Assembly (NCBI RefSeq): GCF_019059575.1
Contig: NW_024881849.1
Location: 248,001-312,000 of the forward strand
Origin: Amphibalanus amphitrite
Taxonomy: Eukaryota > Arthropoda > Thecostraca > Balanomorpha > Balanidae
Direction: 5' to 3'
Length of the DNA stretch: 64,000 nucleotides
In this document: positions 6,355-37,096 of the stretch, one piece after another
How the letters are laid out: every line of letters starts with the position of its first letter
How positions within the stretch are numbered: position 1 is the first letter of the stretch
Translations under genes and position numbers: made by a program
The notes under the pieces: generated by a model
Told to the model about the DNA's origin: nothing
What the model saw: the letters and a program-made list of their open reading frames with translations, nothing else
The model's database searches: none

Positions 6355-6433
6355 ATGAAATCATTTTTGCCTGATTTTTCATATATGGCCAGAAACATTG
6401 TCGACATCCCTCTTCTCTCAATGTGTTTCACAG

Positions 6434-10112: not shown

Positions 10113-10119
10113 AAACGTA

Positions 10120-11982
10120 CCAGCATCTGCGATGCTGGGCTCCGCATCGCGGGACCGCAGGTTGTTTGAGCAAGCACCTCTGTAACGCCGCAAAAACGCC
10201 CGCCGCCAAACGAGAGGATGAGCCTTGCACGTGCAGACCGGAGCGGGTGTGCCACGAACTGATGTGCACTGCACTCTACTAACCGGTCTCTAGCGGTTTG
10301 CCAAATTTGAGTGCAATCGACTCGGCCGTTTTCGAGATCTGGAAGCGACACCCTGCACGTGCGCACGTGCAACCTGGGTCCCAATTGACTTGTGCACGGC
10401 ACTCTATTCGCCGGTCTCTAGCGGTGTGCCAAATCTGAGCACAATAGGCCCGCCCGTTCTCGAGATTTGGAAGCGTCGCCCTGCACGTGCGCACGTGCAG
10501 TTGCACCCCAATCGTGGCGCATGGAAATACATACTAAATGACTGGTGGACGGCGCCCTACTGATCGGTATCAAGCGGTATGCCAAATTTGAGCACAGTCG
10601 GCCCAGCCGTTCTTGAGATCTGGAAGCGTCAGCCTGCACGTGCGCACGTGCCAAATGGGTCCCATCTGACTTGTGCACGGCACCCTACTCGCCGATCCCT
10701 AACGGTGTGCCAACTTTGATCACAATCGGCCCAGCCGTTCTCGAGATCTGGAATCGTCACCCTGCCCGTGCGCACGTGCAGCTGCACCCCAACCGTGACA
10801 CATGGAAATGCATTGCCCGGCGGTTGCCTACATCCATGCCAAGTATCAGCGCAATCGGCAAAATAACTACAGAGTTATTAGACTTGTTACCGAACTGACA
10901 CCTTATCGTTTTGCACGTGGCACGTGCATTAGGGGTCACCCATACGCATCGAGAATAGCACACTACGTGTAAGAAAGGAAGGAGCTATCCCACACAAAAG
11001 ACCGCGAGTGAATCAGTCAAGCAGTTGTGGAGATAGAAGCTTTGCAAGGCGCCCCCACGGCGGCCGACTGCTAATATTTAGCAATAATCAGTGTCGCATC
11101 CGCACACGGGAGGTATCCCCGTCACCTGTTCGTATACTCTAATGTGGTTGGGTTCAAACCACAGTCGAACCCTGATTTTTTTACGGCTTTTCTTAAAAAC
11201 GGCACATCGTGCAGTGACGTTCAATGCATCAGTGGAAAGAGCATCAAAAGTTGTATATTATATTAACTTTTCACCTATATATATTACGAACGATAAAAGT
11301 TATAGAGGAATAAAGACGCTCCCATTGACTTTCCATGTTAAAAATTTCCATTTTCAAACGAACTTTATTAGAAAAAACGATTTTGCACAGCTTAACGAAG
11401 CACAACAGCATATACTATGTTCCTTCCTCAACAACTCTCGAATGTTTGGACGAAATCGTGACACATAATTTTTTACAATGCACGAATGAAAATAGCTCTG
11501 CAAAATTGTCCATTCACTTAACATGGGACACAACAAAATTCCAACTTTGACCTCGTGCAAAGAAACGTTCCGAGATTCTGACGGGTAAACGGCGCACACT
11601 GGCGTGTACCGGAACGTGTTTGCCATTAAATGCCTGGAAGAAAACCACCCCTTTCTTGGCTCGTTTTTCCGCCATTAGCGATGGCGCAAAAAAAGCCCCA
11701 AACCCCCATTGACTTAACATGGGGAAAATGGAAGCGCACGTGCCACGCGCAAAAGAATTCTGAGCGAGTAGCGACCGGTACCAGCAGCTAGATCGCCTCC
11801 GCGAGCCCATGCTCTGAAATTTTTACGAAAATCGTTGCAGTTGTTTGGGCAGGTAGCAAGGTGCCCCAATCCGCGGCCAGACATGCAAAACATAGCCCGA
11901 TGAACGACTGCTCCGGTTGTTTTTCAATAGAAAAACACAATTCTAACGAATAGTGTTTGTCTTTTCAAACAACCTGCGGTTA
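10120..11982 (+). repeat. Array unit 1 (full length, first in array)
   Basis: Begins at CCAGCATCTGCGATGCTGG directly after the left inverted-repeat arm, without a preceding 3'-end block, as expected for the first unit. Carries sub-repeats with E-box palindromes (about 10360-10790) and the full terminal block. Confidence 0.8.
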
Positions 11983-13855
11983 CCGGCATCTGCGATGCCG
12001 GGCTCCGCATCGCGGGACCGCAGGTTGTTTGAGCAAGCACCTTTGTAAACGCAGCAAAAACGCCCGCCACCAAACGAGAGGATGAGCCTTGCACGTGCAG
12101 ACCGGAGTCGGTGTGCTACGGACTGACGTGCACGGCACCCTATTCGTCGGTCTATAGCGGTGTGCCAAATTTGAGTGCAATCGACCCGGCCGTTTTCGAG
12201 ATCTGGAAGCGACACCCTGCACGTGCGCACGTGCAGCCTAGGCCCCAATTGACTTGTGCACGGCACTCTATTCGCCGGTTTGTAGTGGTGTACCAAATTG
12301 GAGCTCAATCGGCCCCGTCAATTTTAAGATCTGGAAGCGACCCCTACACGTGCGCTCGTGGAGCTGCACCCCAACTGTGGCACATGAAAATACATACTAA
12401 CTGACTTGTGCACGGCACCCTACTAACCAGTCTCTAGCGGTATACCAAATTTGAGCACAGTCGGCCCAGCCGTTCTTGAGATCTGGAAGCGTCAGCCTGC
12501 ACGTGCGCACGTGCATAACGGGTCCCATCTGACTTGTGCACGGCACCCTACTTACCAGCCTCTAGCGGTGTGCCAACTTTGATCACAATCGGCCCAGCCG
12601 TTCTCGAGATCTGGAAGCGTCACCCTGCCCGTGTGCACGTGCAGCGGCACCCCAACCGTGACACATGGAAATGCATTGCGCGGCAGGTGCCTACAACCAT
12701 GCCAAGTATCAGCGCAATCGGCAAACTAACTACAGAGTTATTAGACTTGTTACCGAACTGACACCTCTTCGTTTTGCACGTGGCACGTGCATTAGGGGTC
12801 ACCCATACGCATCGAAAACAGCACACTACGTGTAAGAAAGGAAGAAGCTATCCCACACAAAAGACCGCGAGTGAATCGGTCCAGTGGTTGCAGAGATATA
12901 AGGTGTGTAAAGGCACCCCACAGGCGGCCTACTGCTAATATTTAGCAATAATCAGTGTCGCATCCGCACACGGGAGGTATCGCCGTCACCTGTTCGTATA
13001 CTCTAATGTGGTTGGGTTCAAGTCACAGTCGAGCCCTGATTTTTTACAGCTTTTCTTAAAAACGGCACATCGTGCAGTGACGTCCTATGCATCAGTGGAA
13101 AGAGCATCAAAAGTTGTATATTATATTAACTTTTCACCTATATATCTTACTAAAGCTAAAAGTTATAGAGGAATAAAGACGCTCCCATTGACTTTCCATG
13201 TTAAAAATTTTCATTTTCAAACGAACTTTATTAGAAAAAACGATTTCTGCCAGCTTAACGAAGCATACCAGCAAGTACTATGCTCTTTTCTCTACAAGAT
13301 ATAAGAGTTTGGGTGAAATCTATCTCTAAAATTTTGTACAAAGATCGAATGAAAATGTCTCTGCAAAGTCTCGACATCGCCGTCCATTGACTTAACATGG
13401 GACACAGCAAAATTCGAACTTTGACCTCGTGCAAAGACACGTTCCGGGATTCTGAGGGGTATACAGCGCACACTAGCGTGTACCTGAACGTGTTTGCCAT
13501 AAAATGCTGGGAAGAAAACCACCTCCTTCTTGGCTAGTTTTCCCGCTATTGGCGATCGCGCAAAAAGTGTCCAAAACCCCGTTGACTTAACATGGGGAAA
13601 ATGGAATCGCACGTGCCACGCGCAAAAGACTTTTTAGCGAGTAGCGACCGGTGCCATCAGGTAGATCGCCTCCGGGAGCCCATACCCTGAACTTTTTACG
13701 ACGATTGTACATTTCGTCTAGGCTGCGACCAAGTTGCCCCAATTCGCTGCCAGACTTGCAAAACATAGCCCGGAGAAGGACCGCTCCGGTTGTTTTTCAA
13801 TAGAAAAACACAATTCTAACGAATAGTGTTTGTCTTTTCAAACAACCTGCGGTTA
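11983..13855 (+). repeat. Array unit 2 (full length)
   Basis: Starts CCGGCATCTGCGATGCCGG, where both sides of the stem are changed relative to unit 1 so pairing is kept. Otherwise a complete unit. Confidence 0.8.
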
Positions 13856-13941
13856 CCGGAGAAGGACCGCTCCGGTTGTTTTTCAATAGAAAAACACAAT
13901 TCTAACGAATAGTGTTTGTCTTTTCAAACAACCTGCGGTTA
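13856..13941 (+). repeat. Array unit 2b (86-bp 3' fragment)
   Basis: Consists only of the terminal hairpin block, from CCGGAGAAGGACCGCTCCGG to GCGGTTA, inserted directly after the identical end of unit 2. Confidence 0.85.
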
Positions 13942-15944
13942 CCGCCGCCAAACGCAAACACCGAAAAACGCAAACACCGCCGCAAAAACGCCCGCCGTAG
14001 GCAAAACGCAAACACTGACGCATTAAGACAAATATGGCGCCCTGCGGCAAATGTGGTGCATTCATATCTACCGTTTAAGCAGCCATCCCTTAATTACAGC
14101 GCATCCTAATCGTCCAATTTTCGACAAAATAACGCACATTCCGCACTTTGTGGCCAAAATGGCGCTTCGAGACAAACGTGGCGCACTGCAACAAACGTGC
14201 CGCATTCGTTCATGTCGCTTAACAACTCATCAACCCACCAAATTCTAGTCCAATCGGACTTAAACTGACAAAGTTATGTACATTTGAATATTTCACAATA
14301 AAATATATCCGCAACGGAGGTGCCCAAATTTGCACGTGTGCCACGTGATCGCCGGTGATGTAGGCAGGACTTGTCTCCTCACTGATTGCACCATTTCAGT
14401 ATTCCTGGCTTGTGCTGTTTTCGTGCTATAAGGCCACAAATCGGCAAATATACGATAATCTGGGAGGTACGCGACTCAAACACGTGGCCACGTGGCACGT
14501 GCCGGACCTCTGATAGTTTCACCGTTCACACCACGTGATGATTCATCGACGTGGCCATCAGCATGTAAAAAATGACCCCGGCCGGTGTCACCGTCCCTGA
14601 ACAGTGGACGGTTAAACTCGAAAAACGGGAAAATTTAGGGAAATTTCACCTTTCGAATATATAATTTCCCCAGAATTTTATTTTTTTTTTATTTTACAAA
14701 AAATCCGAGATAGCAGTTTTTTAGTCCCCTTCATTCTATGCCTATACCAGTTTTCAGATCGACCCTATCATAAAAACTGACGGCCTGACGGCTATTTCCC
14801 CCACTCCTTGCATTTCACAATGCTAGTATATTTAAGCACCAAAATTGACCCCGTGCCACGGCACGTGCAATAGCACGTGCGACACGTGACCACTAGTGCG
14901 ACAAGCTGGACTCATCTGCTCACCGGCTGCAATGATTTGGTGTCGCTAGGTGGAGTGGTTTCCACGCCATAGGACCCCGAGTAGGCCAATGTCGGATTTT
15001 CCCGGAGGTTACCCCATCAAACACGTTTGCACGTGGCACGTGCTTTTCAATCGCCCCATATCTGACCCATACCATGTGGTAGCCGACACCCTGGGGCACA
15101 ACATATTGGAACATTTTCAAAATCTAACGTGGAAATTTTTGACAAAATCGATTTGAAAATATTTTTTTCGAAATCGCCATAGGCTCAACATGGGGTAACT
15201 TTTTGTGACGATTACCCGAAATTTTGTCAATTATATTTTAAATAATTACCACCGTCAGTTGGGGTGCCAGCCCGAGATCCGACCCTAAAAATATCAGCAA
15301 ATGTAATTGACGAAATTTTTCGCAAATCGCATTTTAATTTTTCCCCATGTTAACCCTATGGGAAAATGCACGTGCCGATTACCCCAAAACGGGCCATTAT
15401 ATTTCATAACGAAGCAAAACAACATGTTCTATGGTCGTTTCTCAACAGGTCCTGAAAGTTTAAACAAAATCGTATCATATAATTTTGTGCAATGAACGAA
15501 TGAAAATGTCTCTGCAAAAACGTCCATTGACTTAGCATGGGGAGCAAAAAAAGTTCAACTTCAAACTCGTGCAACTCAAGTTAACAAATTCTGACGGGTA
15601 TACGGCGCCCACGGGCGTGTACCTGAACGTGTCGGTCATAAAATGGTGTGCAGCAAACCATACCTTGATCGGCGATTTTTTCCGCTATTCGCGATCGCGC
15701 AAAAAGTGTCCAAAACCCCATTGACTTAACATGGGCGAAAATTGAAACGCACGTGCCACGCGCAAAAGAATTCTGAGCGAGTAGCGACTGGTGCCATCAG
15801 GTAGATCGCCTGCGGGAGCTCATACCCTGAACTTTTTACGAAGATTGAGCGATTCGTTTAGGCCCCAATCAAGTTGTACTGATTCGCTGCCAACCATGCA
15901 AAACATAGCCCGGAGAAGGACCGCTCCGGTTGTTTTTCAATAGA
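13942..15944 (+). repeat. Array unit 3a (strongly diverged)
   Basis: Starts with CGCAAACACCG-rich sequence and has a mostly unique 13942-15340 portion, still with GCACGTGGCACGTGC words. From about 15390 to 15930 it follows the standard 3' part in a variant also seen in unit 10 (shared TATGGTCGTTTCTCAACAGG). It stops at TTTTTCAATAG, before the last 53 bases of the terminal block. Represents an older subfamily. Confidence 0.65.
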
Positions 15945-17436
15945 CTGCACCCCAACCGCGGCACATGAAAATACATACTTACTGACTTGTGCACGGCACC
16001 CTACTAACCAGTCTCTAGTGGTATTCCAAATTTGAGCACAGTCGGCCCGGCCGTTCTCGAGATCTGGAAGCGTCACCCTGCACGTGCGCACGTGCAAGAT
16101 GAGTGCCATCTGATTTGTGCACGGCACCCTACTCGCCGATCCCTAACGGTGTGCCAACTTTGATCACAATCGGCCCAGCCGTTCTCGAGATCTGGAAGCG
16201 TCACCCTGCACGTGTGCACGTGCAGCGGCACCCCAACCGTGACACATGGAAATGCATTGCGTGGCAAGTGCCTACAACCATGCCAAGTATCAGCGCAATC
16301 GGCAAACTAACTACAGAGTTATTAGACTTGTTACCGAACTGACACCTCTTCGTTTTGCACGTGGCACGTGCATTAGGGGTCACCCATACGCATCAAGAAC
16401 AGCACACTACGTGTAAGAAAGGAAGAAGCTATCCCACACAAAAGACCGCGAGTGAATCGGTCCAGTGGTTGCAGAGATATAAGGTTTGTAAAGGCATCCC
16501 ACAGGCGGCCTACTGCTAATATTTAGCAAATAATCAGTGTCGCATCCGCTCACGGGAGGTATCGCCGTCACCTGTTCGTATACTCTAATGTGGTTGGGTT
16601 CAAGTCACAGTCGAGCCCTGCTTTTTTACAGCTTTTCTTAAAAACGGCACATCGTGCAGTGACGTTCTATACATTGTTGGAAAGAGCATCGAAAGTTGTA
16701 TATTTTATTAACTTTTCACTTTGGTATATCTGCAACGTAAAAAGTCATTAAGCAACAAAGAAGCTCCCATTGACTTTCCATGTTAAAAATTTTAAATTTC
16801 AAATTAACTTTATAAGAAAAAACGATTTCTGCCAGCTTAACGAAGCATACCAGCATGTACTATGCTCTTTTCTCTACAAGAAATAAGAGTTTGGGTGAAA
16901 TCTATCTCTAAAATTTTGTACAAAGATCGAATGAAAATGTCTCTGCAAAGTCTCGACATCGCCGTCCATTGACTTAACATGGGACACAGCAAAATTCCAA
17001 CTTTGACCTCGTGCAAAGACACGTTCCGAGATTCTGAGGGGTATACAGCGCACACTAGCGTGTACCCAAACGTGTTTGCCATAAAATGCTGGGAAGAAAA
17101 CAACCTCTTCCTTGGCTCGTTTTTCCGCTATTGGCGATCGCGCAAAAAGTGTCCAAAACCCCGTTGACTTAACATGGGGAAAATGGAATCGCACGTGCCA
17201 CGCGCAAAAGACTTCTTAGCGAGTAGCGACCGGTGCCATCAGGTAGATCGCCTGCGGGAGCCCATACACTGAACTTTTTACGAAGATTGTACATTTCGTC
17301 TAGGCCCCGGTCAAGTTGCCCCAATTCGCTGCCAGACTTGCAAAACATAGCCCGGAGAACGACCGCTCCGGTTGTTTTTCAATAGAAAAACACAATTCTA
17401 ACGAATAGTGTTTGTCTTTTCAAACAACCTGCGGTT
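15945..17436 (+). repeat. Array unit 3b (5' truncated)
   Basis: Starts inside the sub-repeat region (CTGCACCCCAACCGCGGC) and runs to the standard 3' end. Confidence 0.75.
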
Positions 17437-19399
17437 AAGTGGTAAGAGTGGCTACAGACTTCAGACTTTATGCAGACTTAACATTGAGGTATTATATATG
17501 CAACTAAATGACACACATGGTGTTTGTTCTAACCTTCTCAACAGAAAGTGAACGTGTCAGGACAGCACCCCTTGGTGACCATTATACCTTTGTAAACGCA
17601 GCAAAAACACCCGCCGCAAAACGAGAGGATGAGCCTTGCACGTGCAGACCGGAGTCGGTGTGCTACGGACTGACGTGCACGGCACCCTATTCGCCGGTCT
17701 ATAGCGGTGTGCCAAATTTGAGTGCAATCGGCCCGGCCGTTTTCGAGATCTCGAAGCGGCACCCTGCACGTGCGCACGTGCAAGCTGGGTCCCAATTGAC
17801 TTGTGCACGGCACTCTATTCGCCGGTTTCTAGCGATGTACCAAATCTAATCTGAATCGGCCCAGCCGTTTCCAAGATCGGGAAACGACCCCTACACGTGC
17901 GCACGTGCAGCTGCACCCCAACCGCGGCACATGAAAATACATACTTACTGACTTGTGCACGGCACCCTACTAACCAGTCTCTAGTGGTACTCCAAATTTG
18001 AGCACAGTCGGCCCGGCCGTTCTCGAGATCTGGAAGCGTCGCCCTGCACGTGCGCACGTGCAAACTGGGTCCCATCTGACTTGTGCACGGCACCCTACTC
18101 GCCGATCCCTAACGGTGTGCCAACGTTGATCATAATCGGCCCAGCCGTTCTCGAGATCTGGAAGCGTCACCCTGCCCGTGCGCACGTGCAGCGGCACCCC
18201 AACCGTGACACATGGAAATGCATTGCGGGGCGGGTGCCTACAACCATGCCAAGTATCAGCGCAATCGGCAAACTAACTACAGAGTTATTAGACTTGTTAC
18301 CGAACTGACTTTTCTTCGTTTTGCACGTGGCACGTGCATTAGGGGTCACCCATACGCATCGAGAATAGCACACTACGTGTAAGAAAGGAAGAAGCTATCC
18401 CACACAAAAGACCGCGAGTGAATCGGTCCAGTGGTTGCAGAGATATAAGGTTTGTAAAGGCACCCCACAGGCGGCCTACTGCTAGTATTTAGCAATAATC
18501 AGTGTCGCATCCGCACACCGGAGGTATCGCCGTCACCTGTTCGTATACTCTAATGTGGTTGGGTTCAAGTCACAGTCGAGCCCTGCTTTTTTACAGCTTT
18601 TCTTAAAAACGGCACATCGTGCAGTGACGTTCTATACATTGTTGGAAAGAGCATCGAAAGTTGTATAATTTATTAACTTTTCACTTTGGTATATCTGCAA
18701 CGTAAAAAGTTATTAAGCAACAAAGACGCTCCCATAGACTTTCCATGTTAAAAATTTTAAATTTCAAATTAACTTTATAAGAAAAAATGAGTTCTGCCAG
18801 CTTAACGAAGCATAACGGCATGTACTATGCTCTTTCCTCTACAAGATATAAGAGTTTGGGCGAAATCTATCTCTAAAATTTTGTACAAAGATCGAATGAA
18901 AATGTCTCTGCAAAGTCTCGGCATCGCCGTCCATTGACTTAACATGGGACACAGCAAAATTCAAACTTTGACCTCGTGCAAAGACACGTTCCGAGATTCT
19001 GAGGGGTATACAGCGCACATTGGCGTGTACCTGAACGTGTTTGCCATAAAATGCTGGGAAGAAAACCACCTCCTTCTTGGCTCGTTTTCCCGCTATTGGC
19101 GATCGCGCAAAAAGTGTCCAAAACCCCATTGACTTAACATGGGCGAAAATTGAAACGCACGTGCCACGTGCCACGAGGTTTTAAGCGAGTAGCGACCGAT
19201 GCCATCAGGTAGATCGCCTCCGGGAGCCCATACACTGAACTTTTTACGAAGATTGTACATTTCGTCTAGGCCCCGGTCAAGTTGCCCCAATTCGCTGCCA
19301 GACTTGCAAAACATAGCCCGGAGAACGACCGCTCCGGTTGTTTTTCAATAGAAAAACACAATTCTAACGAATAGTGTTTGTCTTTTCAAACAACCTGCG
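17437..19399 (+). repeat. Array unit 4 with 145 bp of foreign filler at its start
   Basis: The first 145 bases (17437-17581) match nothing else in the array. Unit sequence starts at CCTTTGTAAACGCAGC. Its last four bases (GTTA) are displaced by the 55-bp fragment that follows. Confidence 0.7.
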
Positions 19400-19454
19400 T
19401 AGAAAAACACAATTCTAACGAATAGTGTTTGTCTTTTCAAACAACCTGCGGTTA
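19400..19454 (+). repeat. Array unit 4b (55-bp 3' fragment)
   Basis: A second copy of only the last 55 bases (TAGAAAAACACAATTC to GCGGTTA), placed at CCTGCG of unit 4. It is the shortest unit and shows that the extreme 3' end alone can be duplicated. Confidence 0.8.
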
Positions 19455-21246
19455 CCCGCCACCAAACGAGAGGATGAGCCTTGCACGTGCAGACCGGAGT
19501 CGGTGTGCTACGGACTGACGTGCACGGCACCCTATTCGTCGGTCTATAGCGGTGTGCCAAATTTGAGTGCAATCGACCCGGCCGTTTTCGAGATCTGGAA
19601 GCGACACCCTGCACGTGCGCACGTGCAGCCTAGGCCCCAATTGACTTGTGCACGGCACTCTATTCGCCGGTTTCTAGCGGTGTACCAAATTGGAGCTCGA
19701 TCGGCCCCGTCAATTTCAAGATCTGGAAGCGACCCCTACACGTGCGCTCGTGCAGCTGCACCCCAACCGTGGCACATGAAAATACATACTAACTGACTTG
19801 TGCACGGCACCCTACTAACCAGTCTCTAGCGGTATGCCAAATTTGAGCACAGTCGGCCCAGCCGTTCTTGAGATCTGGAAGCGTCATCCTGCACGTGCGC
19901 ACGTGCATAACGGGTCCCATCTGACTTGTGAACGGCACCCTACTAACACACCTCTAGCGGTGTGCCAAGTTTGATAACAATCGGCCCAGCCGTTTTCGAG
20001 ATCTGGAAGCGTCACCCTGCACGTGCGCACGTGCAGCGGCACCCCAACCGTGACACACAGAAATGTATTACCCGGCGGGTGCCTACCCCCATGCCATGTA
20101 TCAGCGCAATCGGCAAAATAACTACAGAGTTATTAGACTTGCTACCGAACTAACACCTCTTCGCTTTGCACGTGGCACGTGCATTAGGGGTCACACATAC
20201 GCATCGAGAGTAGCACACTACGTGTGAGAAAGGAAGAAGCTATCTCACTCAAAAGACCGCGAGTGAAGCGGTCAAGCGGTTATGGAGATATAACCTTTGC
20301 AAAGGCGCCCCACAACGGCCGACTGCTAATATTCAGCAATAATCAGTGTCGCGTCCGCTAATGGGAGGTGTCCCCTTCACCTGTTCGTATATTCTAATGT
20401 GGTTGGGTTCAAGTCACAGTCGAGCCCTGCTTTTTTACAACTTCTCTTAAAAACGGCACATCGTGCAGTGACGTTCTATACATTGTTGGAAAGAGCATCG
20501 AAAGTTGTATATTTTATTAACTTTTCACTTTCGTATATCTGCAACGTAAAAAGTTATTAAGCAACAAAGACGCTCCCATTGACTTTCCATGTTAAAAATT
20601 TTCATTTTCAAACGAACTTTATTAGAAAAAACGATTTCTGCCAGCTTAGCGAAGCATACCAGCATGTACTATGCTCTTTCCTCTACAAGATATAAGAGTT
20701 TGGGCGAAATCTATCTCTAAAATTTTGTACAAAGATCGAATGAAAATGTCTCTGCAAAGTCTCGACATCGCCGTCCATTGACTTAACACGGGACACAGCA
20801 AAATTCCAACTTTGACCTCGTGCAAAGACACGTTCCGAGATTCTGAGGGGTATACAGCGCACACGAGCGTGTACCTGAACGTGTTTGCCATAAAATGCTG
20901 GGAAGAAAACCACCTCCTTCTTGGCTCGTTTTCCCGCCATTGGCGATCGCGCAAAAAGTGTCCAAAACCCCATTGACTTAACATGGGGAAAATGGAATCG
21001 CACGTGCCACGCGCAAAAGACTTTTTAGCGAGTAGCGACCGGTGCCATCAGGTAGATCGCCTCCGGGAGCCCATACACTGAACTTTTTACGAAGATTGAA
21101 CGATTCGTTTAGGCCCCACCCAAGTTGCCCCAATTCGCTGCCAGACTTGCAAAACATAGCCCGGACAACGACCGCTCCGGTTGTTTTTCAATAGAAAAAC
21201 ACAATTCTAACGAATAGTGTTTGTCTTTTCAAACAACCTGCGGTTA
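19455..21246 (+). repeat. Array unit 5 (5' truncated)
   Basis: Starts at CCCGCCACCAAACGAGAGG, just after the branched hairpin region, then continues as a standard unit with the CTGCAACGTAAAAAG version of the 3' region. Confidence 0.75.
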
Positions 21247-23119: not shown

Positions 23120-23389
23120 CTTAACATGGGGAAAATGGAATCGCACGTGCCACGCGCAAAAGACTTCTTAGCGAGTAGCGACCGGTGCCATAAGGTAGAT
23201 CGCCTCCGGGAGCCCATACACTGAACTTTTTACGAAGATTGAGCGATTCGTCTAGGCCCCCGTCAAGATGTCTCGATTCGCGGCCAACTTTGCTAAACAT
23301 ACCCCGGAGAACGACCGCTCCGGTTGTTTTTCAATAGAAAAACACAATTCTAACGAATAGTGTTTGTCTTTTCAAACAACCTGCGGTTA
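23120..23389 (+). repeat. Array unit 6b (270-bp 3' fragment)
   Basis: Starts at CTTAACATGGGGAAAATGG, about 270 bases before the common end. Confidence 0.8.
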
Positions 23390-26150: not shown

Positions 26151-27165
26151 GTAGAGGCTATCCCTCACAAAAGACCGCAAGTGAATCGGTCAAGCGGTTG
26201 TGGAGATATAAGCTTTGCAAAGGCGCCCCAACGGCGGCCGACTGCTAATAATTAGCAATAATCAGTGTCGCGTCCGCACATGGGAGGTGTCCCCTTCACC
26301 TGTTCGTATATTCTAATGTGGTTGGGTTCAAGTCACAGTCGAGCCCTGCTTTTTTACAGCTTTTCTTAAAAACGGCACATCGTGCAGTGGCGTTCTATAC
26401 ATTGTTGGAAAGAGCACCGAAAGTTGTATATTATATTAAGTTTTCACCTATATATATTACTAACGATAAAAGTTATAGAGGAATAAAGACGCACCCATTG
26501 ACTTTCCATGCTAAAAATTGTAATTTTCAAATTAACTTTAAAAGAAAAAATGAGTTTTGCCACCTTAACGAAGCATACCAGCAAGTACTATGCTCTTTCC
26601 TCTACAAGATATAAGAGTTTGGGCGAAATCTATCTCTAAAATTTTGTACAAAGATCGAATGAAAATGTCTCTGCAAAGTCTCGACATCGCCGTCCATTGA
26701 CTTAACATGGGACACAGCAAAATTCCAACTTTGACCTCGAGCAAAGACACGTTACGAACTTCTGAGGGGTATACGGCGCACACTGGCGTGTACCGGAACG
26801 TGTTTGCCATAAAATGCTGGGAAGAAAACTACCTCTTTCTTGGCTCGTTTTTCCGCCATTCCCGATGGCGCAAAAAGTGTCCAAAACCCCATTGACTTAA
26901 CATGGGGAAAATGGAATCGCACGTGCCACGTGCCACGAGGTTTTAAGCGAGTAGCGACCGGTGCCATAAGGTAGATCGCCTCCGGGAGCCCATACACTGA
27001 ACTTTTTACGAAGATTGTACATTTCGTCTAGGCCCCGCTCAAGTTGCCCCAATCTCAGGCCAACCATGCAAAACATAGCCCGGTGAACGACTGCTCCGGT
27101 TGTTTTTCAATAGAAAAACACAATTCTAACGAATAGTGTTTGTCTTTTCAAACAACCTTCGGTTA

Positions 27166-29034
27166 ATTTTCCCCTCAACAGGCAAATCCTGGAACCAGCT
27201 TCCCGTATTTGAGCAAGCACCTCTGTAACGCCGCAAAAACGCCCGCCGCCAAACGAGAGGATGAACCTTGCACGTGCAGCCCGGAGCGGGTGTGTCACGA
27301 ACTGACGTGCACTGCACTCTACTAACCGGTCTCTAGCGGTTTGCCAAATTTGAGTGCAATCGACCCGGCCGTTTTCGAGATCTGGAAGTGACACCCTGCA
27401 CGTGCGCACGTGCAACCTGGGTCCCAATTGACTTGTGCACGGCACTCTATTCGCCGGTTTCTAGCGATGTACCAAATTTAATCTGAATCGGCCCAGCCGT
27501 TTCCAAGATCTGGAAACGACCCCTACACGTGCGCACGTGCAGCTGCACCCCAACCGTGGCACATGAAAATACATACTTACTGACTTGTACACGGCACCCT
27601 ACTAACCAGTCTCTAGCGGTATGCCAAATTTGAGCACAGTCAGCCCAGCCGTTCTTGAGATCTGGAAGCGTCAGCCTGCACGTGCGCACGTGCCAAATGG
27701 GTCCCATCTGAGTTGTGCACGGCACCCTACTTGCCGATCCCTAACGGTGTGCCAACTTTGATCACAATCGGCCCAGCCGTTCTCGAGATCTGGAAGCGTC
27801 ACCCTGCCCGTGCGCACGTGCAGCTGCACCCCAACCGTGACACACGGAAATGTATTGCCCGGCGGTTGCCTACATCCATGCCAAGTATCAGTGCAATCGG
27901 CAAAGTAACTACAGAGTTATTAGACTTGTTACCGAACTGAGACCTCTTCGCTTTGCACGTGGCACGTGCATTAGGGGTCACCCATACGCATCGAGAATAG
28001 CACACTACGTTTGGGAAAGGAAAAAACTATCCCACACAAAAGACCGCGAGTGAATCGGTCCAGTGGTTGCAGAGATATAAGGTTTGTAAAGGCACCCCAC
28101 AGGCGGCCTACTGCTAATATTTAGCAATAATCAGTGTCGCATCCGCACACGGGAGGTATCCCCGTCACCTGTTCGTATACTCTAATGTGGTTAGGTTCAA
28201 GTCACAGTCGAGCCCTGATTTTTTACAGCTTTTCTTAAAAACGGCACATCGTGCAGTGACGTCGTATGCATCAGTGGAAAGAGCATCAAAAGTTGTATAT
28301 TATATTAACTTTTCACCTATATATCTTACTAAAGGTAAAAGTTATAGTGGAATAAAGACGCTCCCATTGACTTTCCATGTTAAAAAATTTAAATTTCAAA
28401 TTAACTTTAAAAGAAAAAATGAGTTTTGCCACCTTAACGAAGCATACCAGCAAGTACTATGCTCTTTCCTCTACAAGATATAAGAGTTTGGGCGAAATCT
28501 ATCTCTAAAATTTTGTACAAAGATCGAATGAAAATGTCTCTGCAAAGTCTCGACATCGCCGTCCATTGACTTAACATGGGACACAGCAAAATTCCAACTT
28601 TGACCTCGTGCAAAGACACGTTCCGAGATTCTGAGGGGTATACAGCGCACACTGGCGTGTACCCAAACGTGTTTGCCATAAAATGCTGGGAAGAAAACCA
28701 CCTCTTCCTTGGCTCGTTTTCCCGCCATTGGCGATCGCGCAAAAAGTGTCCAAAACCCCGTTCACTTAACATGGGGAAAATGGAATCGCACGTGCCACGT
28801 GCCACGAGGTTTTAAGCGAGTAGCGACCGGTGCCATAAGGTAGATCGCCTGCGGGAGCCCATACCCTGAACTTTTTACGAAGATTGTACATTTCGTCTAG
28901 GCCCCACCCAAGTTGCCCCAATTCGCGGCCAGACTTGCAAAACATAGCCCGGACAACGACCGCTCCGGTTGTTTTTCAATAGAAAAACACAATTCTAACG
29001 AATAGTGTTTGTCTTTTCAAACAACCTGCGGTTA
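27166..29034 (+). repeat. Array unit 8 with 44 bp of filler at its start
   Basis: Filler ATTTTCCCCTCAACAGG to about 27209 is not array sequence. Unit sequence starts at TTGAGCAAGCACC, just inside the 5' inverted repeat. Confidence 0.75.
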
Positions 29035-30904
29035 CAGCATCTGCGATGCTGGGCTCCGCATCGCGGGACCGCAGGTTGTTTGAGCAAGCACCTCTGTAAC
29101 GCCGCAAAAACGCCCGCCGCCAAACGAGAGGATGAGCCTTGCACGTGCAGCCCGGAGCGGGTGTGTCACGAACTGACGTGCACTGCACTCTACTAACCGG
29201 TCTCTAGCGGTTTGCCAAATTTGAGTGCAATCGACCCGGCCGTTTTCGAGATCTGGAAGTGACACCCTGCACGTGCGCACGTGCAACCTGGGCTCCCAAT
29301 TGACTTGTGCACGGCATTCTATTCGCCGGTTTCTAGCGATGTACCAAATTTAATCTGAATCGGCCCAGCCGTTTCCAAGATCGGGAAACGACCCCTACCG
29401 GTGCGCACGTGCAGCTGCACCCCAACCGTGGCACATGAAAATACATACTAACTGACTTGTGCACGGCACACTACTAACCAGTCTCTAGCGGTATGCCAAT
29501 TTTGAGCACAGTCGGCCCAGCCGTTCTTGAGATCTGGAAGCGTCAGCCTGCACGTGCGCACGTGCATAACGGGTCCCATCTGACTTGTGCACGGCACCCT
29601 ACTAACCAGCCTCTAGCGGTGTGCCAAGTTTGATCACAATCGGCCCAGCCGTTCTCGAGATCTGGAAGCGTCACCCTGCCCGTGCGCACGTGCAGCGGCA
29701 CCCCAACCGTGACACATGGAAATGCATTGCCGGGTGCGTGCCAACATCCATGCAAAGTACCAGCGCAATCGGCAAACTAACTACAGAGTTATTAGACTTG
29801 TTACTGAACTGACTTCTCATCGTTTTGCACGTGGCACGTGCATTAGGGGTCACCCATACGCATCGAGAATAGCACACTACGTGTAAGAAAGGAAGAAGCT
29901 ATCCCACACAAAAGACCGCGAGTGAATTGGTCAAGTAGTTGTGGAGATAGAAGCTTTGCAAGGCGCCCCCAAGGCGGCCGAATGCTAATATTTTGCAATA
30001 ATCAGTGTCGCATCCGCACACGGGAGGTATCCCCGTCACCTGTTCGTATACTCTAATGTGGTTGGGTTCAAGTCACAGTCGAGCCCTGATTTTTTACAGC
30101 TTTTCTTAAAAACGGCACATCGTGCAGTGACGTCCTATGCATCAGTGGAAAGAGTATCAAAAGTTGCATATTATATTAACATTTCACCTATATATCTTAC
30201 TAAAGATAAAAGTTATAGAGGAATAAAGACGCTCCCATTGACTTTCCATGTTAAAAATTTTAAATTTCAAATTAACTTTAAAAGAAAAAATGAGTTTTGC
30301 CACCTTAACGAAGCATACCAGCAAGTACTATGCTCTTTCCTCTACAAGATATAAGAGTTTGGGCGAAATCTATCTCTAAAATTTTGTACAAAGATCAAAT
30401 GAAAATGTCTCTGCAAAGTCTCGATTTCGCCGTCCATTGACTTAACATGGGACACAGCAAAATTCCAACTTTGACCTCGTGCAAAGACACGTTCCGAGAT
30501 TCTGAGGGGTATACAGCGCACACTAGCGTGTACCCAAACGTGTTTGCCATAAAATGCTGGGATGAAAACCACCCCTTTCTTGGCTCGTTTTTCCGCCATT
30601 CCCGATGGCGCAAAAAGTGTCCAAAACCCCGTTGACTTAACATGGGGAAAATGGAATCGCACGTGCCACGTGCCACGAGGTTTTAAGCGAGTAGCGACCG
30701 GTGCCATAAGGTAGATCGCCTCCGGGAGCCCATACACTGAACTTTTTACGAAGATTGTACATTTCGTCTAGGCCCCTACCAAGTTGCCCCAATTCGCTGC
30801 CAGACTTGCAAAACATAGCCCGGACAACGACCGCTCCGGTTGTTTTTCAATAGAAAAACACAATTCTAACGAATAGTGTTTGTCTTTTCAAACAACCTGC
30901 GGTT
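29035..30904 (+). repeat. Array unit 9 (full length)
   Basis: Starts CAGCATCTGCGATGCTGG, one C shorter than units 1, 6 and 10. Its 5' half is almost identical to unit 6. Confidence 0.8.
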
Positions 30905-33155
30905 ACCAGCATCTGCGATGCTGGGCTCCGCATCGCGGGACCGCAGGTTGTTTGAGCAAGCACCTTTGTAAACAGCCTTTAGCGGTGTGCCAAATTTGAG
31001 TGCAATCGGCACGGCCATTTTCGGGATCCGGAAGCGTCACACTGCACGTGCGCACGTGCAAGCTGTGTCCAATTGACTTGTGCATGGGACCCTATTCGCC
31101 GGTCTCTAGCGGTGTACCAAATTTGAGCTCAATCGGCCCAGCCGTTCTCGAGATCTGGAAGCGTCACCCTGCACGTGCGCACGTGCAGTTGCACCCCAAC
31201 CGTAGCACATGGAAATACATACGAACTGACTTGTGCACGGCACCATACTAATCGGTCTCTAGAGGTGTGCCCAATTTGAGTGCAATCGGTTCAGCCGTTG
31301 TTGAGATCTGGAAGCGTCACCCTGCACGTGCGCACGTGCAAGATGGGTCCTATCTGACTTGCGCACGGCACCCTACTAACCGGTCTCTAGCGGTGTACCA
31401 AATTTGAACTCAATCGGCCCGGCCGTTCTCGAGATCTGGAAGTGTCACCCTGCACGTGCGCACGTGCAGTTGCACCCCAACCGTAGCACATGGAAACGCA
31501 TGGTTCGGTGTGTGCCTACAACCTTGTTAAGTTTCAGCGCAATCAGCCCAGCACTTACCGTGTTATTGTCATAACAACAAAAGTGACACCTGTCCGTTTT
31601 ACACGTGTCACGTGCAGTAGGGGTCACCTGCACGCATCGTGCGTAGTAAAATACTTGTAAGAAGGGTATAAGCTACCCCACACAAAAAACCGCAAGTGTA
31701 TCGGTCCAGTGGTTGCGGAGATATAAGTCGTACAAAAACGTGCCCACGGCGGCCGGCCGCTAATATTTAGCATTAAATCGCATCCTTCTATGGGAGGTAT
31801 CCCCGTCACCTGTTCGTATACTGTCTGAGCAAAGACCATATATAGCTGTGAGCTCAAATCTCGGTTATGTCGTGTTTTTTTTACTAAATTTCTCAAAAAC
31901 GGCACAACGTGCAATAACGCTCTATATATCATTGGAAAGAGCATCAAAAGTTGTATATCCTATCAACTTTTCACTTAAATATATCTTCAACGTACAAAGT
32001 TATTAAAGGGACCCTCCCACCTTAACATTAGTTTTGAGTTGAGATAGCCAAGTTTGCGGCCAGGCTCAGAAACAACCATTTATCCTGGTCGCATCCCCCG
32101 CAGCTTTATGGTGTTCAAGAAATTTCTTCCCTTTACTTGCAGGGTGGGACCAGCGTGGTCCCTATCTCTTAACCATTACGGGAGTCTGATGACGTCATCA
32201 GGCTTTCGAACGTCCGTTAAATGTTTGACTAAAACGTTTTGTAGCACGCGGTGGTATATGCTGCTTTGCGCGCAACAAATGCCGCACTTTCAAATAAAGT
32301 CGCTAGGAACAGCGGAGATCCCAAAAAGTAAACAAAAGTAAAAGTCTAATATCTTGAAAACCGGTGAATATTTTTCGATGAAATTTGGTAGATATTCGTT
32401 TTTGCTCTTTCTGAACCGAGCGACATCACTTTCATGCCAATTCATTAACTTTTTTGAAGGTGGGAGGGTCCCTTTAAGCACCAAAGACGCTCCCATTGAC
32501 TTTCAATGTTAGAAATTTTCACTTTTAAACGAGCTTAAAAAGAACAAACGAATTCTGACAGCTTAACGAAGCATAACAACATGTTCTATGGTCGTTTCTC
32601 AACAGGTCCTGAAAGTTTAAACAAAATCGTATCATATAATTTTGTGCAATGTGCTAATGAAAATGTCTCTGCAAAAACGCCCATTGACTTAACATGGGGA
32701 GCGAAAAAAGTTCAACTTCAAAGTCGTACTACAAAAAATATCGACTTCTTACGAGTAGACGGCGCATATGGGCGTGTACCTGAATGTGTCAGTCATAAAA
32801 TGGTGTGCAGCAAACCATACCTTGATCGGCGATTTTTTCCGCTATTCCCGATCGCGCAAAAAGTGTCCAAAACCCCGTTGACTTAACATGGGGAAATGGA
32901 ATCGCACGTGCCACGTGCCACGAGGTTTTAAGCGAGTAGCGACCGGTGCCATCAGGTAGATCGCCTGCGGGAGCCCATACCCTGAACTTTTTACGGAAAT
33001 CGCAATGCACGTTTAGGCCCCGGTCAAGTTGCCCCAATTCGCTGCCAGACATGCAAAACATAGCCCGGAGAAGGACCGCTCCGGTTGTTTTTCAACAGAA
33101 AAACACAATTCTAACGAATAGTGTAGTGTTTGTCTTTTCAAACAACCTGCGGTTA
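30905..33155 (+). repeat. Array unit 10 (diverged, contains TTAA MITE)
   Basis: Standard hairpin start, then a diverged body (about 30975-32006 and 32474-33060) resembling unit 3a. The terminal block carries a 5-bp TAGTG duplication near 33121. Confidence 0.75.
32007..32473. mobile_element. TTAA MITE family A, copy 2, inside array unit 10
   Basis: Ends AGGGACCCTCCCACCTT and AAGGTGGGAGGGTCCCT, flanked by TTAA (32003-32006, 32474-32477). Sister units show the uninterrupted site with a single TTAA (GTTATTAAGCAACAAAG), proving the TTAA duplication. Confidence 0.92.
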
Positions 33156-34962
33156 CGCAGCAAAAACGCCCGCCGCCAAACGAGAGGATGAGCCTTGCAC
33201 GTGCAGACCGGAGTCGGTGTGCTACGGACTGACGTGCACGGCACCCTATTCTCCGGTCTATAGCGGTGTGCCAAATTTGAGTGCAATCGACCCGGCCATT
33301 TTCGAGATCTGGAAGCGACACCCTGCACGTGCGCACGTGCAGCCTGGGCCCCAATTGACTTGTGCACGGCACTCTATTCGCTGGTTTCTAGCGATGTACC
33401 AAATTTAATATGAATCGGCCCAGCCGTTTCCAAGATCGGGAAACGACCCCTACACGTGCGCACGTGCAGCTGCACCCCAACCGCGGCACATGAAAATCCA
33501 TACTTACTGACTTGTGCACGGCACCCTACTAACTAGTCTCTAGAGGTATGCCAAATTTGAGCACAGTCGGCCCAGCCGTTCTTGAGATCTGGAAGCGTCA
33601 GCCTGCACGTGCGCACGTGCCAAAGGGGTCCCAGCTGAGTTGTGCACGGCACCCTACTCGCCGATCCCTAACGGTGTGCCAACTTTGATCACAATCGGCC
33701 CAGCCGTTCTCGAGATCTGGAAGCGTCACCCTGCCCGTGCGCACGTGCAGCTGCACCCCAACCGTGACACACGGAAATGTATTGCCCGGCGGTCGCCTAC
33801 ATCCATGCCAAGTATCAGTGCAATCGGCAAAGTAACTACAGAGTTATTAGACTTGTTACCGAACTGAGACCTCTTCGTTTTGCACGTGGCACGTGCATTA
33901 GGGGTCACCCATACGCAGCGAGAATAGCACACTACGTGTAAGAAAGGAAGGAGCTATCCCACACAAAAGACCGCGAGTGAATCGGTCCAGTGGTTGCAGA
34001 GATATAAGGTTTGTACAGGCACCCCACAGGCGGCCTACTGCTAATATTTAGCAATAATCAGTGTCGCATCCGCACACGGGAGGTATCGCCGTCACCTATT
34101 CGTATACTCTAATGTGGTTGGGTTCAAGTCACAGTCGAGCCCTGCTTTTTTACAACTTTTCTTAAAAACGGCACATCGTGCAGTGACGTTCTATACATTA
34201 TTGGAAAGAGCATCGAAAGTTGTATGTTTTATTAACTTTTCACTTTGATATATCTGTAACGTAAAAAGTTATTAAGCAACAAAGACGCTCCCATTGACTT
34301 TCCATGTTAAAAATTTTCATTTTCAAACGAACTTTATTAGAAAAAAACGATTTCTGCCAGCTTAACGAAGCATAACGGCATGTACTATGCTCTTTCCTTT
34401 ACAAGATATAAGAGTTTGGGCGAAATCTATCTCTAAAATTTTGTACAAAGATCGAATGAAAATGTCTCTGCAAAGTCTCGACATCGCCGTCCATTGACTT
34501 AACATGGGACACAGCAAAATTCCAACTTTGACCTCGTGCAAAGACACGTTCCGAGATTCTGAGGGGTATACAGCGCACACTAGCGTGTACCCAAACGTGT
34601 TTGCCATAAAATGCTGGGAAGAAAACCACCTCTTCCTTGGCTCGTTTTCCCGCTATTGGCGATCGCGCAAAAAGTGTCCAAAACCCCGTTCACTTAACAC
34701 GGGGAAAATGGAATCGCACGTGCCACGTGCCACGAGGTTTTAAGCGAGTAGCGACCGATGCCATAAGGTAGATCGCCTCCGGGAGCCTATACACTGAACT
34801 TTTTACGAAGATTGTACATTTCGTCTAGGCCCCAATCAAGATGTCTCGATTCGCTGCCAGACTTGCAAAACATAGCCCGGAGAAGGACCGCTCCGGTTGT
34901 TTTTCAATAGAAAAACACAATTCTAACGAATAGTGTTTGTCTTTTCAAACAACCTGCGGTTA
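33156..34962 (+). repeat. Array unit 11 (5' truncated)
   Basis: Starts CGCAGCAAAAACGCC. Its 3' half is nearly identical to that of unit 12. Confidence 0.8.
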
Positions 34963-35084
34963 TCTCGATTCGCTGCCAGACTTGCAAAACATAGCCCGGA
35001 GAAGGACCGCTCCGGTTGTTTTTCAATAGTAGAAAAACACAATTCTAACGAATAGTGTTTGTCTTTTCAAACAACCTGCGGTTA
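34963..35084 (+). repeat. Array unit 11b (122-bp 3' fragment)
   Basis: Starts TCTCGATTCGCTGCC. It shows a CAATAG-TAGAAAAACAC join between the second hairpin and the final 55 bases. Confidence 0.8.
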
Positions 35085-35226
35085 CCCCGGAGAACGACCG
35101 CTCCGGTTGTTTTTCAATAGACAACTTTGCAAAACATACCCCGGAGAACGACCGCTCCGGTTGTTTTTCAATAGAAAAACACAATTCTAACGAATAGTGT
35201 TTGTCTTTTCAAACAACCTGCGGTTA
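35085..35226 (+). repeat. Array unit 11c (142 bp, two joined 3' fragments)
   Basis: 35085-35120 carries the CCGGAG/CTCCGG hairpin block. A second start follows at ACAACTTTGCAAAACATACC, and the segment runs to the common end. Confidence 0.75.
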
Positions 35227-37096
35227 AGCATCTGCGATGCTGGGCTCCGCATCGCTGGACCGCAGGTTGTTTGAGCAAGCATCTTTGGAAACGCAGCAAA
35301 AACGCCCGCCGCCAAACGAGAGGATGAGCCTTGCACGTGCAGACCGGAGTCGGTGTGCTACGGACTGACGTGCACGGCACCCTATTCGCCGGTCTATAGC
35401 GGTGTGCCAAATTTGAGTGCAATCGACCCGGCCGTTTTCGAGATCTGGAAGCGTGACCCTGCACGTGCGCACGTGCAGCCTGGGCCCTAATTGACTTGTG
35501 CACGGCACTCTATTCGCCGGTTTCTAGCGATGTACCAAATTTAATCTGAATCGGCCCAGCCGTTTCCAAGATCGGGAAACGACCCCTACACGTGCGCACG
35601 TGCAGCTGCACCCCAACCGCGGCACATGAAAATACATACTTACTGACTTGTGCACGGCACCCTACTAACTAGTCTCTAGTGGTATGCCAAATTTGAGCAC
35701 AGTCGGTCCAACCGTTCTTGAGATATGGAAGCGTCAGCCTGCACGTGCGCACGTGCAAACTGGGTCCCATCTGACTTGTGCACGGCACCCTACTCGCCGA
35801 GCCCTAACGGTGTGCCAACTTTGATCACAATCGGCCCAGTCGTTCTCGAGATCTGGAAGCGTCACCCTGCCCGTGCGCACGTGCAGCGGCACCCCAACCG
35901 TGACACATGGAAATGCATTGCGCGGCGGGTGCCTACAACCATGCCAAGTATCAGCGCAATCGGCAAACTAACTACAGAGTTATTAGACTTGTTACTGAAC
36001 TGACTTCTTTTCGTTTTGCACGTGGCACGTGCATTAGGGGTCACCCATACGCATCGAGAGTAGCACACTACGTGTAAGAAAGGAAGGAGCTATCCCACAC
36101 AAAAGACCGCGAGTGAATCGGTCCAGTGGTTGCAGAGATATAAGGTTTGTACAGGCACCCCACAGGCGGCCTACTGCTAATATTTAGCAATAATCAGTGT
36201 CGCATCCGCACACGGGAGGTATCGCCGTCACCTATTCGTATACTCTAATGTGGTTGGGTTCAAGTCACAGTCGAGCCCTGCTTTTTTACAACTTTTCTTA
36301 AAAACGGCACATCGTGCAGTGACGTTCTATACATTATTGGAAAGAGCATCGAAAGTTGTATGTTTTATTAACTTTTCACTTTGATATATCTGTAACGTAA
36401 AAAGTTATTAAGCAACAAAGACGCTCCCATTGACTTTCCATGTTAAAAATTTTCATTTTCAAACGAACTTTATGAGAAAAAACGATTTCTGCCAGCTTAA
36501 CGAAGCATAACGGCATGTACTATGCTCTTTCCTTTACAAGATATAAGAGTTTGGGCGAAATCTATCTCTAAAATTTTGTACAAAGATCGAATGAAAATGT
36601 CTCTGCAAAGTCTCGACATCGCCGTCCATTGACTTAACATGGGACACAGCAAAATTCCAACTTTGACCTCGTGCAAAGACACGTTCCGAGATTCTGAGGG
36701 GTATACAGCGCACACTAGCGTGTACCCAAACGTGTTTGCCATAAAATGCTGGGAAGAAAACCACCTCTTCCTTGGCTCGTTTTCCCGCTATTGGCGATCG
36801 CGCAAAAAGTGTCCAAAACCCCGTTCACTTAACACGGGGAAAATGGAATCGCACGTGCCACGTGCCACGAGGTTTTAAGCGAGTAGCGACCGATGCCATA
36901 AGGTAGATCGCCTCCGGGAGCCTATACACTGAACTTTTTACGAAGATTGTACATTTCGTCTAGGCCCCAATCAAGATGTCTCGATTCGCTGCCAGACTTG
37001 CAAAACATAGCCCGGAGAAGGACCGCTCCGGTTGTTTTTCAATAGAAAAACACAATTCTAACGAATAGTGTTTGTCTTTTCAAACAACCTGCGGTT
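35227..37096 (+). repeat. Array unit 12 (full length, last in array)
   Basis: Starts AGCATCTGCGATGCTGG with a slightly altered second arm (CGCTGGACC instead of CGCGGGACC). Ends with the complete terminal block, after which the sequence is unrelated. Confidence 0.8.

Follow-up and report, generated by a model that had tools for sequence, protein, structure and literature searches.

The window, the whole 64,000-nucleotide stretch that was analysed, carries at 10120-37097 a 27-kb array composed of noncoding mobile elements. Tiling with unit references resolved it into 19 head-to-tail units, nearly each of which has one exact and one ragged end. Judging by the sequence, these units are probably (about two chances in three) Helitron2/Helentron-type rolling-circle transposons, non-autonomous and oriented along the minus strand; the "3' end" of the plus strand would be their 5' origin and the ragged end their 3' termination.

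Units and ends of the array

On the plus strand, 16 of the 19 units end in ..CTGCGGTTA, one of these with a base change. One further unit stops four bases short of this end, and the remaining two stop 51 nt before it, at an alternative site where CAATAGA is followed by C (unit ends 15944 and 35121); this site occurs twice more, in loci L025 and L028. The start point of the following unit differs widely from junction to junction: six units have a full start (10120, 11983, 21247, 29035, 30906 and 35227, two being 1-2 nt short) and 13 are truncated. Unit lengths run from 37 bp to ~2.2 kb, unlike the fixed period of an ordinary satellite. The first-pass annotation had thus been right in denying such a satellite and in describing one exact and one variable end. 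The 17 end positions it listed are all present, though 17436, 30904 and 37096 were one base low (17437, 30905 and 37097) and 19399 has the shortened form ..CCTGCG.

The sequence CAAACAACCTGCGGTTA occurs on the plus strand of the window in 15 exact copies and one with a single mismatch. With up to two mismatches there are 22 matches on both strands, against 0.03 expected from shuffles, and the six minus-strand matches are the partner inverted repeat described below. The long "filler" at 13942-15944 belongs to a second unit type, M, of which it is a truncated copy. The pieces without a unit match are 17438-17585 (148 bp), 27166-27207 (42 bp), the insertion at 24087-26149 and ~490 bp at 31988-32473. 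The parts are collected in Table 1.

Table 1. Parts of the array, in window positions
Feature	Position	Strand	Basis or remark
Whole array, 19 units head to tail	10120..37097	taken as minus	origin end is right side of each unit
Host TA adjoining ragged (3') end of outermost unit	10118..10119	.	junction read
Unit 1, full length, U type	10120..11982	-	tiling
Unit 2, full length, reference unit U	11983..13855	-	
Unit 3, 86-bp origin-end fragment, 100% identical to neighbour; could be local duplication	13856..13941	-	
Unit 4, truncated M-type copy (M:634-2636), alternative end	13942..15944	-	
Unit 5, truncated U	15945..17437	-	tiling
Unit 6, truncated U, exact end 4 nt short	17586..19399	-	tiling
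Unit 7, 55-bp fragment	19400..19454	-	tiling
Unit 8, truncated U	19455..21246	-	tiling
Unit 9, full length	21247..23119	-	tiling
Unit 10, 270-bp fragment	23120..23389	-	tiling
Unit 11, truncated U interrupted by an unrelated insertion at 24087-26149 (U:858-869 overlapping, 12 bp)	23390..27165	-	tiling
Unit 12, truncated U, host CGTA at ragged end	27208..29034	-	tiling
Unit 13, full length minus 1 nt	29035..30905	-	tiling
Unit 14, full length, rearranged U2-like body, ~490 bp unmatched	30906..33155	-	tiling
Unit 15, truncated U	33156..34962	-	tiling
Unit 16, 122-bp fragment	34963..35084	-	tiling
Unit 17, 37-bp piece, alternative end	35085..35121	-	
Unit 18, ~100-bp fragment	35122..35226	-	tiling
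Unit 19, full length minus 2 nt	35227..37097	-	tiling
Origin (5') end of reference unit: TA, 16-nt inverted repeat, long hairpin	13782..13855	-	
3' end of reference unit: partner inverted repeat stopping 34 nt before terminus, then terminal hairpin	11983..12032	-	

Exact ends and landing sites across the genome

Exact ends were found at 3,961 places genome-wide (1,786 + 2,175; up to one mismatch), the reversed-pattern control giving none. The 105 ends read come from the window and from loci chosen among the first 100 places that one search for exact matches gave (contigs C1-C16); the survey comprised 27 loci, and L034 and L035 hold no end. The next unit after the exact end was full-length in 25 cases and truncated in 45. 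The end is common to unit types with different bodies (U, U2 and M), while V carries a diverged form, and M-type units adjoin U-type units in the window tiling. The same junction, GGTTA joined to CCTACCA, recurs on many contigs (42 of 100 places among the matches listed) and contigs of the assembly are as long as 3.8 Mb; hence, it is unlikely that the array is an assembly artefact.

A satellite that expanded through unequal exchange and local duplications, breaking preferentially at TA or at the hairpin, was already disfavoured and is very improbable. It would account for adjacent repeats of 86 and 51 bp that match perfectly (short units beside an identical neighbour may be local duplications), for three 2,055-bp units in L024 and for the recurrence of the GGTTA-CCTACCA junction every 6.6-6.9 kb over part of contig C281. 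However, it leaves unexplained why single copies dispersed through the genome share this exact end at unrelated TA sites, why there are many distinct ragged starts and why M-type units adjoin U-type ones.

Dispersed copies sharing the end, which the first-pass annotation had proposed to look for, do exist, and those read mostly consist of just 21-135 nt of the exact end; they were collected by searching for the tail, so that their exact end is partly selected. The set was picked from longer lists as 59 loci, of which 54 were distinct after five duplicate rows were dropped. For 42 of the 54, TA is found no more than one base from the ragged end, against a background of 12%; the figure is 35 of 47 when seven look-alike pairs are counted once. 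At array/filler junctions TA was seen by eye in 17 of 18, two of which, in L025, share one flank. On the minus strand, the exact end of these 54 copies is preceded by A (31 copies), G (18) or T (5), no background having been computed. Insertion is mostly at (A/G)^TA, the dispersed copies lying mostly between a purine and TA. The insertion site proposed earlier, CCTGCG^GTTA, holds at one window junction (19399) but elsewhere the new unit follows TA. Among the first 100 exact ends listed of the 3,961, 96 lie less than 20 kb from another. Of the places with the TCTATTTC tail, 7 of the 41 read (of 80 exact) are in arrays (C6:2346574, L057, L058 and L060-L063). There are two classes of copy, one mostly dispersed and one almost only beside itself.

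The end GGTTA corresponds to one (TTAGG) unit and the copy at L009 sits in (CCTAA)n, as a telomere-seeking retroelement would have it, but this explanation is scarcely credible. Exact CCTAACC follows the end only once genome-wide (119 places with up to two mismatches), a count on which telomere targeting as a general rule was rejected, and the arrays read are internal to large contigs.

No target duplication of at least 7 bp adjoining the copy was found in the first 20 solo copies; the solo L047 has a 9-bp repeat 162 nt away. Duplications of 2-3 bp or longer are possible at L068/L070 and at some array joins, duplications of 10 to ~153 bp adjoin eight ends, and a possible 37-bp target duplication surrounds a multi-unit insert (L025/L026). 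A 284-bp candidate in L017 was rejected, as the sequence repeated there is the U2 body. Microhomology of at least 2 nt was seen at 12 of 40 ragged joins, against 4.5% expected (mean 0.95 versus 0.35). Two of these observations speak against a Helitron: duplications of 10 to ~153 bp are unexpected unless they are local tandem duplications, and microhomology at joins is usual for reverse transcription.

Terminal anatomy and the search for a partner

The minus-strand ends of U, M and U2 read TAACCG.. and ..GATGC(T/C)GG. Their exact (origin) end is TA-ACCGCAGGTTGTTTG followed by a hairpin; it is also written TAACCGCAGGTTG.., the other side of the insertion being ..hairpin and then TA, and its plus-strand form is the tail ..CAAACAACCTGCGGT. 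In all three types a 16-nt inverted repeat, beginning at nt 3 of the exact end, joins both termini, and its partner stops 34 nt (U), 36 nt (M) or 33 nt (U2) before the other terminus. In 300 shuffles of each, the maximum was 10 (U), 8 (M) and 9 (U2), and 200 pairs of internal windows of U gave 9 at most. The three types therefore have asymmetric terminal inverted repeats of the Helitron2/Helentron kind. A hairpin was predicted in 15 of 15 distinct origin ends chosen by pattern, including V with its differing other strand. A 3'-terminus hairpin is the best predicted fold in U and U2, whereas the best fold of the last 50 nt of M differs. A few exceptions aside, truncation occurs only on the side opposite the exact end. 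Helitrons are known for 3' read-through; among the loci read, no run past the full terminus was seen apart from L025, where 81 bp shared by two units beyond it could be read-through and could also be a duplication.

The other process that came into question was target-primed reverse transcription of a non-autonomous retroelement (SINE/LINE-like or Penelope-like) on the plus strand, which we consider unlikely. Its RNA would end in the hairpin and then ..GGU(UA), i.e. ..CCUGCGGU(UA), and an endonuclease would cut at TA. Reverse transcription would begin exactly at the 3' end and often stop early, with the 3' ends of old copies as preferred target, and template jumping could join several units in a single event. 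Such a process predicts an exact 3' end combined with 5' truncation to many different lengths, as seen here; the very short dispersed 3' fragments, the microhomology and the possible target duplications described above agree with it, and the second exact end 51 nt away is like a Penelope "tail" (PMC11167929). As precedent, PMC11371274 describes template jumping by R2 proteins in vitro; with endonuclease-dead R2 proteins, head-to-tail repeats were observed in cells. This process explains truncation but gives no reason for the two termini to share a 16-nt inverted repeat, and duplications beside short fragments may equally be tandem duplications. Only one of six GIY-YIG loci on contigs C1-C15 lies less than 20 kb from an exact end, and the tail is absent from all three Penelope-like 3' flanks read (0.7-1.1 kb). 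An HDV-like or hammerhead ribozyme at unit ends was rejected: nothing was found by Rfam in window positions 10000-38000 (hammerhead, up to E 5) or by scanning U, M and two V copies for the motif. The first-pass annotation had named both target-primed reverse transcription and rolling-circle copying into its own end; the latter is ranked higher owing to the inverted-repeat layout on the other strand, which the former leaves unexplained.

The choice of a Helitron rests on anatomy, since no autonomous element with the same ends was found among the loci examined. The genome has 148 matches to Helitron Rep domains, 25 within open frames of more than 1,000 aa; Rep open frames lie on contigs C575, C64 and C105, and C173 has matches too. 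None of eight Rep loci on contigs C1-C15 lies less than 20 kb from an exact 17-mer match, the kind of match to which this proximity listing is confined, and diverged ends would escape it. Upstream of one Rep domain, the frame is open throughout 1,001 bases and the element terminus was not reached. In V, M and ancestral solos, the sequence preceding the tail showed no long ORF where it sufficed, nor was a reverse transcriptase-encoding partner joined to the tail in the translated stretches. Of 14,921 reverse-transcriptase candidates in the genome 150 were scored, too few to bear on the question. Insertions within arrays were rejected as partners, L022 and L023 being LTR-type polyproteins and L032 an L1-like fragment, none joined to the tail (translations by eye).

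Known systems, proposed mechanism and significance

Canonical Helitrons (Helitron1) begin with 5' TC and end with 3' CTRR, and the array units lack these ends. Such noncanonical ends, the R^TA site and the position of the 3' hairpin weigh against the Helitron reading. In plant centromeres, tandem arrays of truncated Helitrons reportedly have many 5' ends and few 3' ends; by description they resemble the head-to-tail truncated copies here, which occur in an animal host and on many contigs. Bacterial IS91-type one-ended transposition likewise leaves one exact and one variable end, with a short target sequence also present at the origin end, but its variable end lies beyond the element, whereas here it is nearly always inside.

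The first-pass annotation recognised no described family, which was too strong. According to PMC5148889, Helitron2-type elements have asymmetric terminal inverted repeats, terminal hairpins, multiple 5' ends, self-insertion and partial copies reduced to the first 31 or 65 bp of the 5' end, and the FoHelis of Fusarium oxysporum include partial copies with just 31-85 bp of the 5' terminus. The array units resemble them in the placement of the inverted repeat, which lies at the very 5' end with its partner tens of bp in from the 3' end, and in hairpins, short 5'-terminus partial copies, multiple 5' termini and self-insertion. As far as that source goes, they differ in lacking a Rep gene, in the R^TA site instead of TT and TTTT^T/C (Helentrons and Helitron2), in thousands of copies mostly in arrays, in a much longer origin hairpin and in a 3' hairpin placed after the inner repeat rather than within it as in FoHeli1/2. 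Penelope-like elements (PMC11167929, PMC3846280) likewise form partial tandems head to tail, with truncated copies, a pair of adjacent exact 3' ends and microhomology at joins; here no hammerhead, no long ORF and, in three flanks read, no tail was found. In the telomeric retrotransposon arrays HeT-A, MoTeR and FoTeR (PMC12857005), truncated copies keep one end, but the arrays here are not at telomeres.

For a Helitron2/Helentron-type element, a Rep/helicase supplied in trans would nick R^TA at the origin and unwind toward the 3' terminator. The released strand may stop early, perhaps often near the origin hairpin, and would be joined at another R^TA. The origin itself starts with TA, so existing copies would be prime targets and new units would enter at that TA; they would hence pile up beside old origins and head-to-tail arrays would grow. 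Local tandem duplication and amplification of composite units may contribute too. We tentatively propose, as one possible account, a Helitron2-like element whose nicking site is restored by its own origin and which has come to land mainly at existing origins. The origin hairpin would terminate rounds early, and the arrays would record thousands of abortive rolling-circle rounds, each starting at an exact base and stopping at a readable point.

How eukaryotic rolling-circle transposons choose their stop and make tandem arrays is still debated. Here ~4,000 copies have one base-exact end, and their stops range from less than 20 nt up to the whole unit; models of how such elements terminate, transfer by one end and target themselves thereby become testable from sequence. 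If reverse transcription were the true process, the element would be an unusually clean self-targeting retroelement.

The shared exact end and the units of the array

The window spans positions 248001-312000 on contig C352. The first-pass annotation had located at least 17 copies of a shared end in the array at window 10120-37097; all 17 positions it gave were found, three one base off. The end sequence CAAACAACCTGCGGTTA is present on the plus strand in 15 exact copies and one with a single mismatch (window 11966-37097), and a search of both strands of the window with up to two mismatches gave 22 matches against 0.03 expected. Genome-wide (807.6 Mb searched, at most one mismatch), it was located at 1786 + 2175 places; the reversed pattern, searched as a control, gave 0 places.

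The window array is tiled by 19 units, of which 16 terminate at ..GGTTA, one stops four bases short (at 19399) and two (15944, 35121) use an alternative end lying 51 nt earlier. Six units start at the full terminus, two of these being 1-2 nt short. Four unit types with different bodies were distinguished, and the exact end is common to all, the V form being about 85% identical; the opposite terminus is common to U, M and U2, that of V lying outside the sequence seen. In total, 105 exact ends were read from the window and 27 long loci of the same genome, and were classified against U and M only. A full-length unit came next in 25, a truncated unit followed immediately in 45, 16 were separated from the next unit by a gap, and beyond 19 no element was found, a count that refers to these two references: one locus (L017) was scored as having none because U2 was not among them, and U2 was later found after its end. 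At 40 truncated joins, unit length ranged from 18 to 2,650 bp.

Coordinates of unit types and neighbouring features
Feature	Location	Length	Strand	Remarks
Unit type U	window 11983-13855	1873 bp		full unit, reference
Unit type M	L009	2687 bp		
Unit type U2	L030	2691 bp		
Unit type V	L024/L018/L025			partial only
ACGTGCGCACGTGC sub-repeat body	window 46584-47067; L034:5878-6384; L102:845-981			without either terminus
Long C2H2 zinc-finger open frames	window 1405-2463, 6343-7605, 44389-45879			named by eye
Open frames like Tc1/mariner-type transposase	window 60903-62166		minus	by eye

The zinc-finger frames consist of 84-bp tandem repeats and flank the array on both sides. One unit contains a 2-kb insertion (window 24087-26149) with GC-rich inverted ends, at which 12 bp of the unit overlap, and a hairpin with GTGGGGCTATTTGAGACA repeats; Rfam MIR868 scored 49.6 bits here, under the 200-bit cut-off. 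Elsewhere, locus L020 presumably encodes a cuticle-like protein, and one (CCTAA)n stretch was present in a locus read; both features suggest an arthropod genome.

Element termini, dispersed copies and insertion site

The exact end had been described on the plus strand as a 3' end; the end itself is real, but a minus-strand reading puts it at the start of the element. On that strand, the element starts with TA-ACCGCAGGTTGTTTG followed by a long hairpin; at its other end, ..CAAACAACCTGCGGT is separated by 33 to 36 nt from the terminus, where a further hairpin lies. The 16-nt repeats of the two ends are in inverted orientation and asymmetric in position; the longest inverted repeat was 10, 8 and 9 nt in shuffled end windows of U, M and U2 (300 per type) and 9 nt in 200 internal window pairs of U. 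Each of 15 distinct origin ends picked by a pattern was predicted to form the hairpin, and that of V is predicted to be kept despite a different 3' strand. A report on Helitron2-type elements describes a 5'-terminal repeat whose partner lies some 20-51 bp internal to the 3' terminus, as well as hairpins, multiple 5' termini, self-insertion, and partial copies limited to the outermost 31 or 65 bp at the 5' end (PMC5148889).

A variant tail, TCTATTTC, was found at 164 + 170 places genome-wide (up to two mismatches). No two of its 80 exact matches lie within 20 kb of each other, and 34 of the 41 read were solitary, with 7 in arrays; in the general exact-end search, 96 of the first 100 exact matches listed were within 20 kb of another. 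The scattered class is presumably the older one. The dispersed copies sampled (59 loci read, 5 duplicates dropped, 54 kept) are reduced to 21-135 nt at the exact end, with lengths clustering at 20-25 (7), 35-44 (12) and 48-62 nt (17), one copy of 30 nt and 17 longer ones. The clusters lie roughly near the near base, apex and far base of the hairpin, a correspondence to be taken as a lead and not as a test. TA was present within one base of the ragged end in 42 of the 54 copies (background 12%) and, by eye, in 17 of 18 array units not directly after another unit, two of the 18 having identical flank. Beyond the exact end of the dispersed copies, the minus strand has A in 31 cases, G in 18 and T in the remaining 5. 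Given TA on the ragged side and this A/G preference on the other, the site is therefore mostly (A/G)^TA.

Probable rolling-circle transposition and the rival reading of reverse transcription

The best-supported explanation of the array is rolling-circle transposition with Rep/helicase supplied in trans, the steps being read from the anatomy of the element. Copying would start exactly at the origin and stop at the terminus or early, and the new copy would be joined at R^TA. Because the origin itself begins with TA, old origins would serve as targets, and joining there would build up head-to-tail arrays in which the origins are exact and the 3' ends ragged. Sequence capture is a known property of Helitrons, and the different bodies between shared ends fit it; the unit body looks captured from another repeat, since ACGTGCGCACGTGC sub-repeats occur without termini. 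In L025, two units continue past the full terminus with an identical 81 bp that is joined behind a TA, which is possibly one case of 3' read-through, though duplication would look alike.

The Helitron Rep family has 148 matches in the genome, and 25 of these lie in frames of more than 1,000 aa. Exact matches of the end were listed in full for contigs C1-C15, and none of them lies within 20 kb of any of the eight Rep loci there; upstream of one Rep domain an open frame continued throughout 1 kb, with no element terminus reached. Rep matches are spaced about 13.0 kb apart on C173 and C2217 (one C173 spacing is 11.5 kb), in frames interrupted by a TGA, and C64 and C575 have 1847-aa frames with Rep matches, repeated every 13-17 kb.

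It is rather unlikely that target-primed reverse transcription built the units, although it accounts for 5' truncation behind an exact 3' end, for short copies and for the microhomology of at least 2 nt seen in 12 of 40 joins against 4.5% expected; the inverted repeats of both termini are left unexplained by it. In 8 joins, an insert next to an older end is flanked on either side by the same 10 to about 153 bp, resembling a target duplication, but for short-tail inserts local tandem duplication would give the same repeats, and the 37-bp repeat around a multi-unit insert (L025/L026) is the sole case beyond that explanation. Penelope-like elements, which possess a second 3' end (PMC11167929), are abundant in the genome (92 GIY-YIG matches), yet the tail was absent from all three of their 3' flanks read. 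At C5:1127350-1130746 (L105, L018), a Penelope-like 3' end directly adjoins a copy of type V and an array; of the 6 loci checked, no other showed such a pairing. GIY-YIG matches also occur as divergent pairs (minus then plus) a few kb apart on C1178, C781, C406, C698 and others, as head-to-head Penelope-like copies would lie.

Array growth and relation to known elements

Part of the array growth is due to ordinary processes, as is seen in perfect neighbouring repeats of 86 and 51 bp and in three 2,055-bp units at L024. The junction GGTTA|CCTACCA was present at 42 of 100 places listed and is spaced 6.6-6.9 kb along part of C281, and this recurrence indicates that composite units were also amplified. 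At C1:1625000-1685000 (L012, L014), the arrays are duplicated in inverted orientation and the two arms share their junctions, which may be either a biological or an assembly effect.

Arrays of truncated Helitrons are reportedly already known in plants (cited in PMC5148889). Helitron2-type self-insertion is already known in fungi (PMC5148889). The titles and abstracts searched contained nothing on this element family and, as far as they show, what is new is a family of arrays in an animal that combines base-exact origins, measured stops, a mostly dispersed class and a second class of copies that are almost confined to sites next to their own kind.
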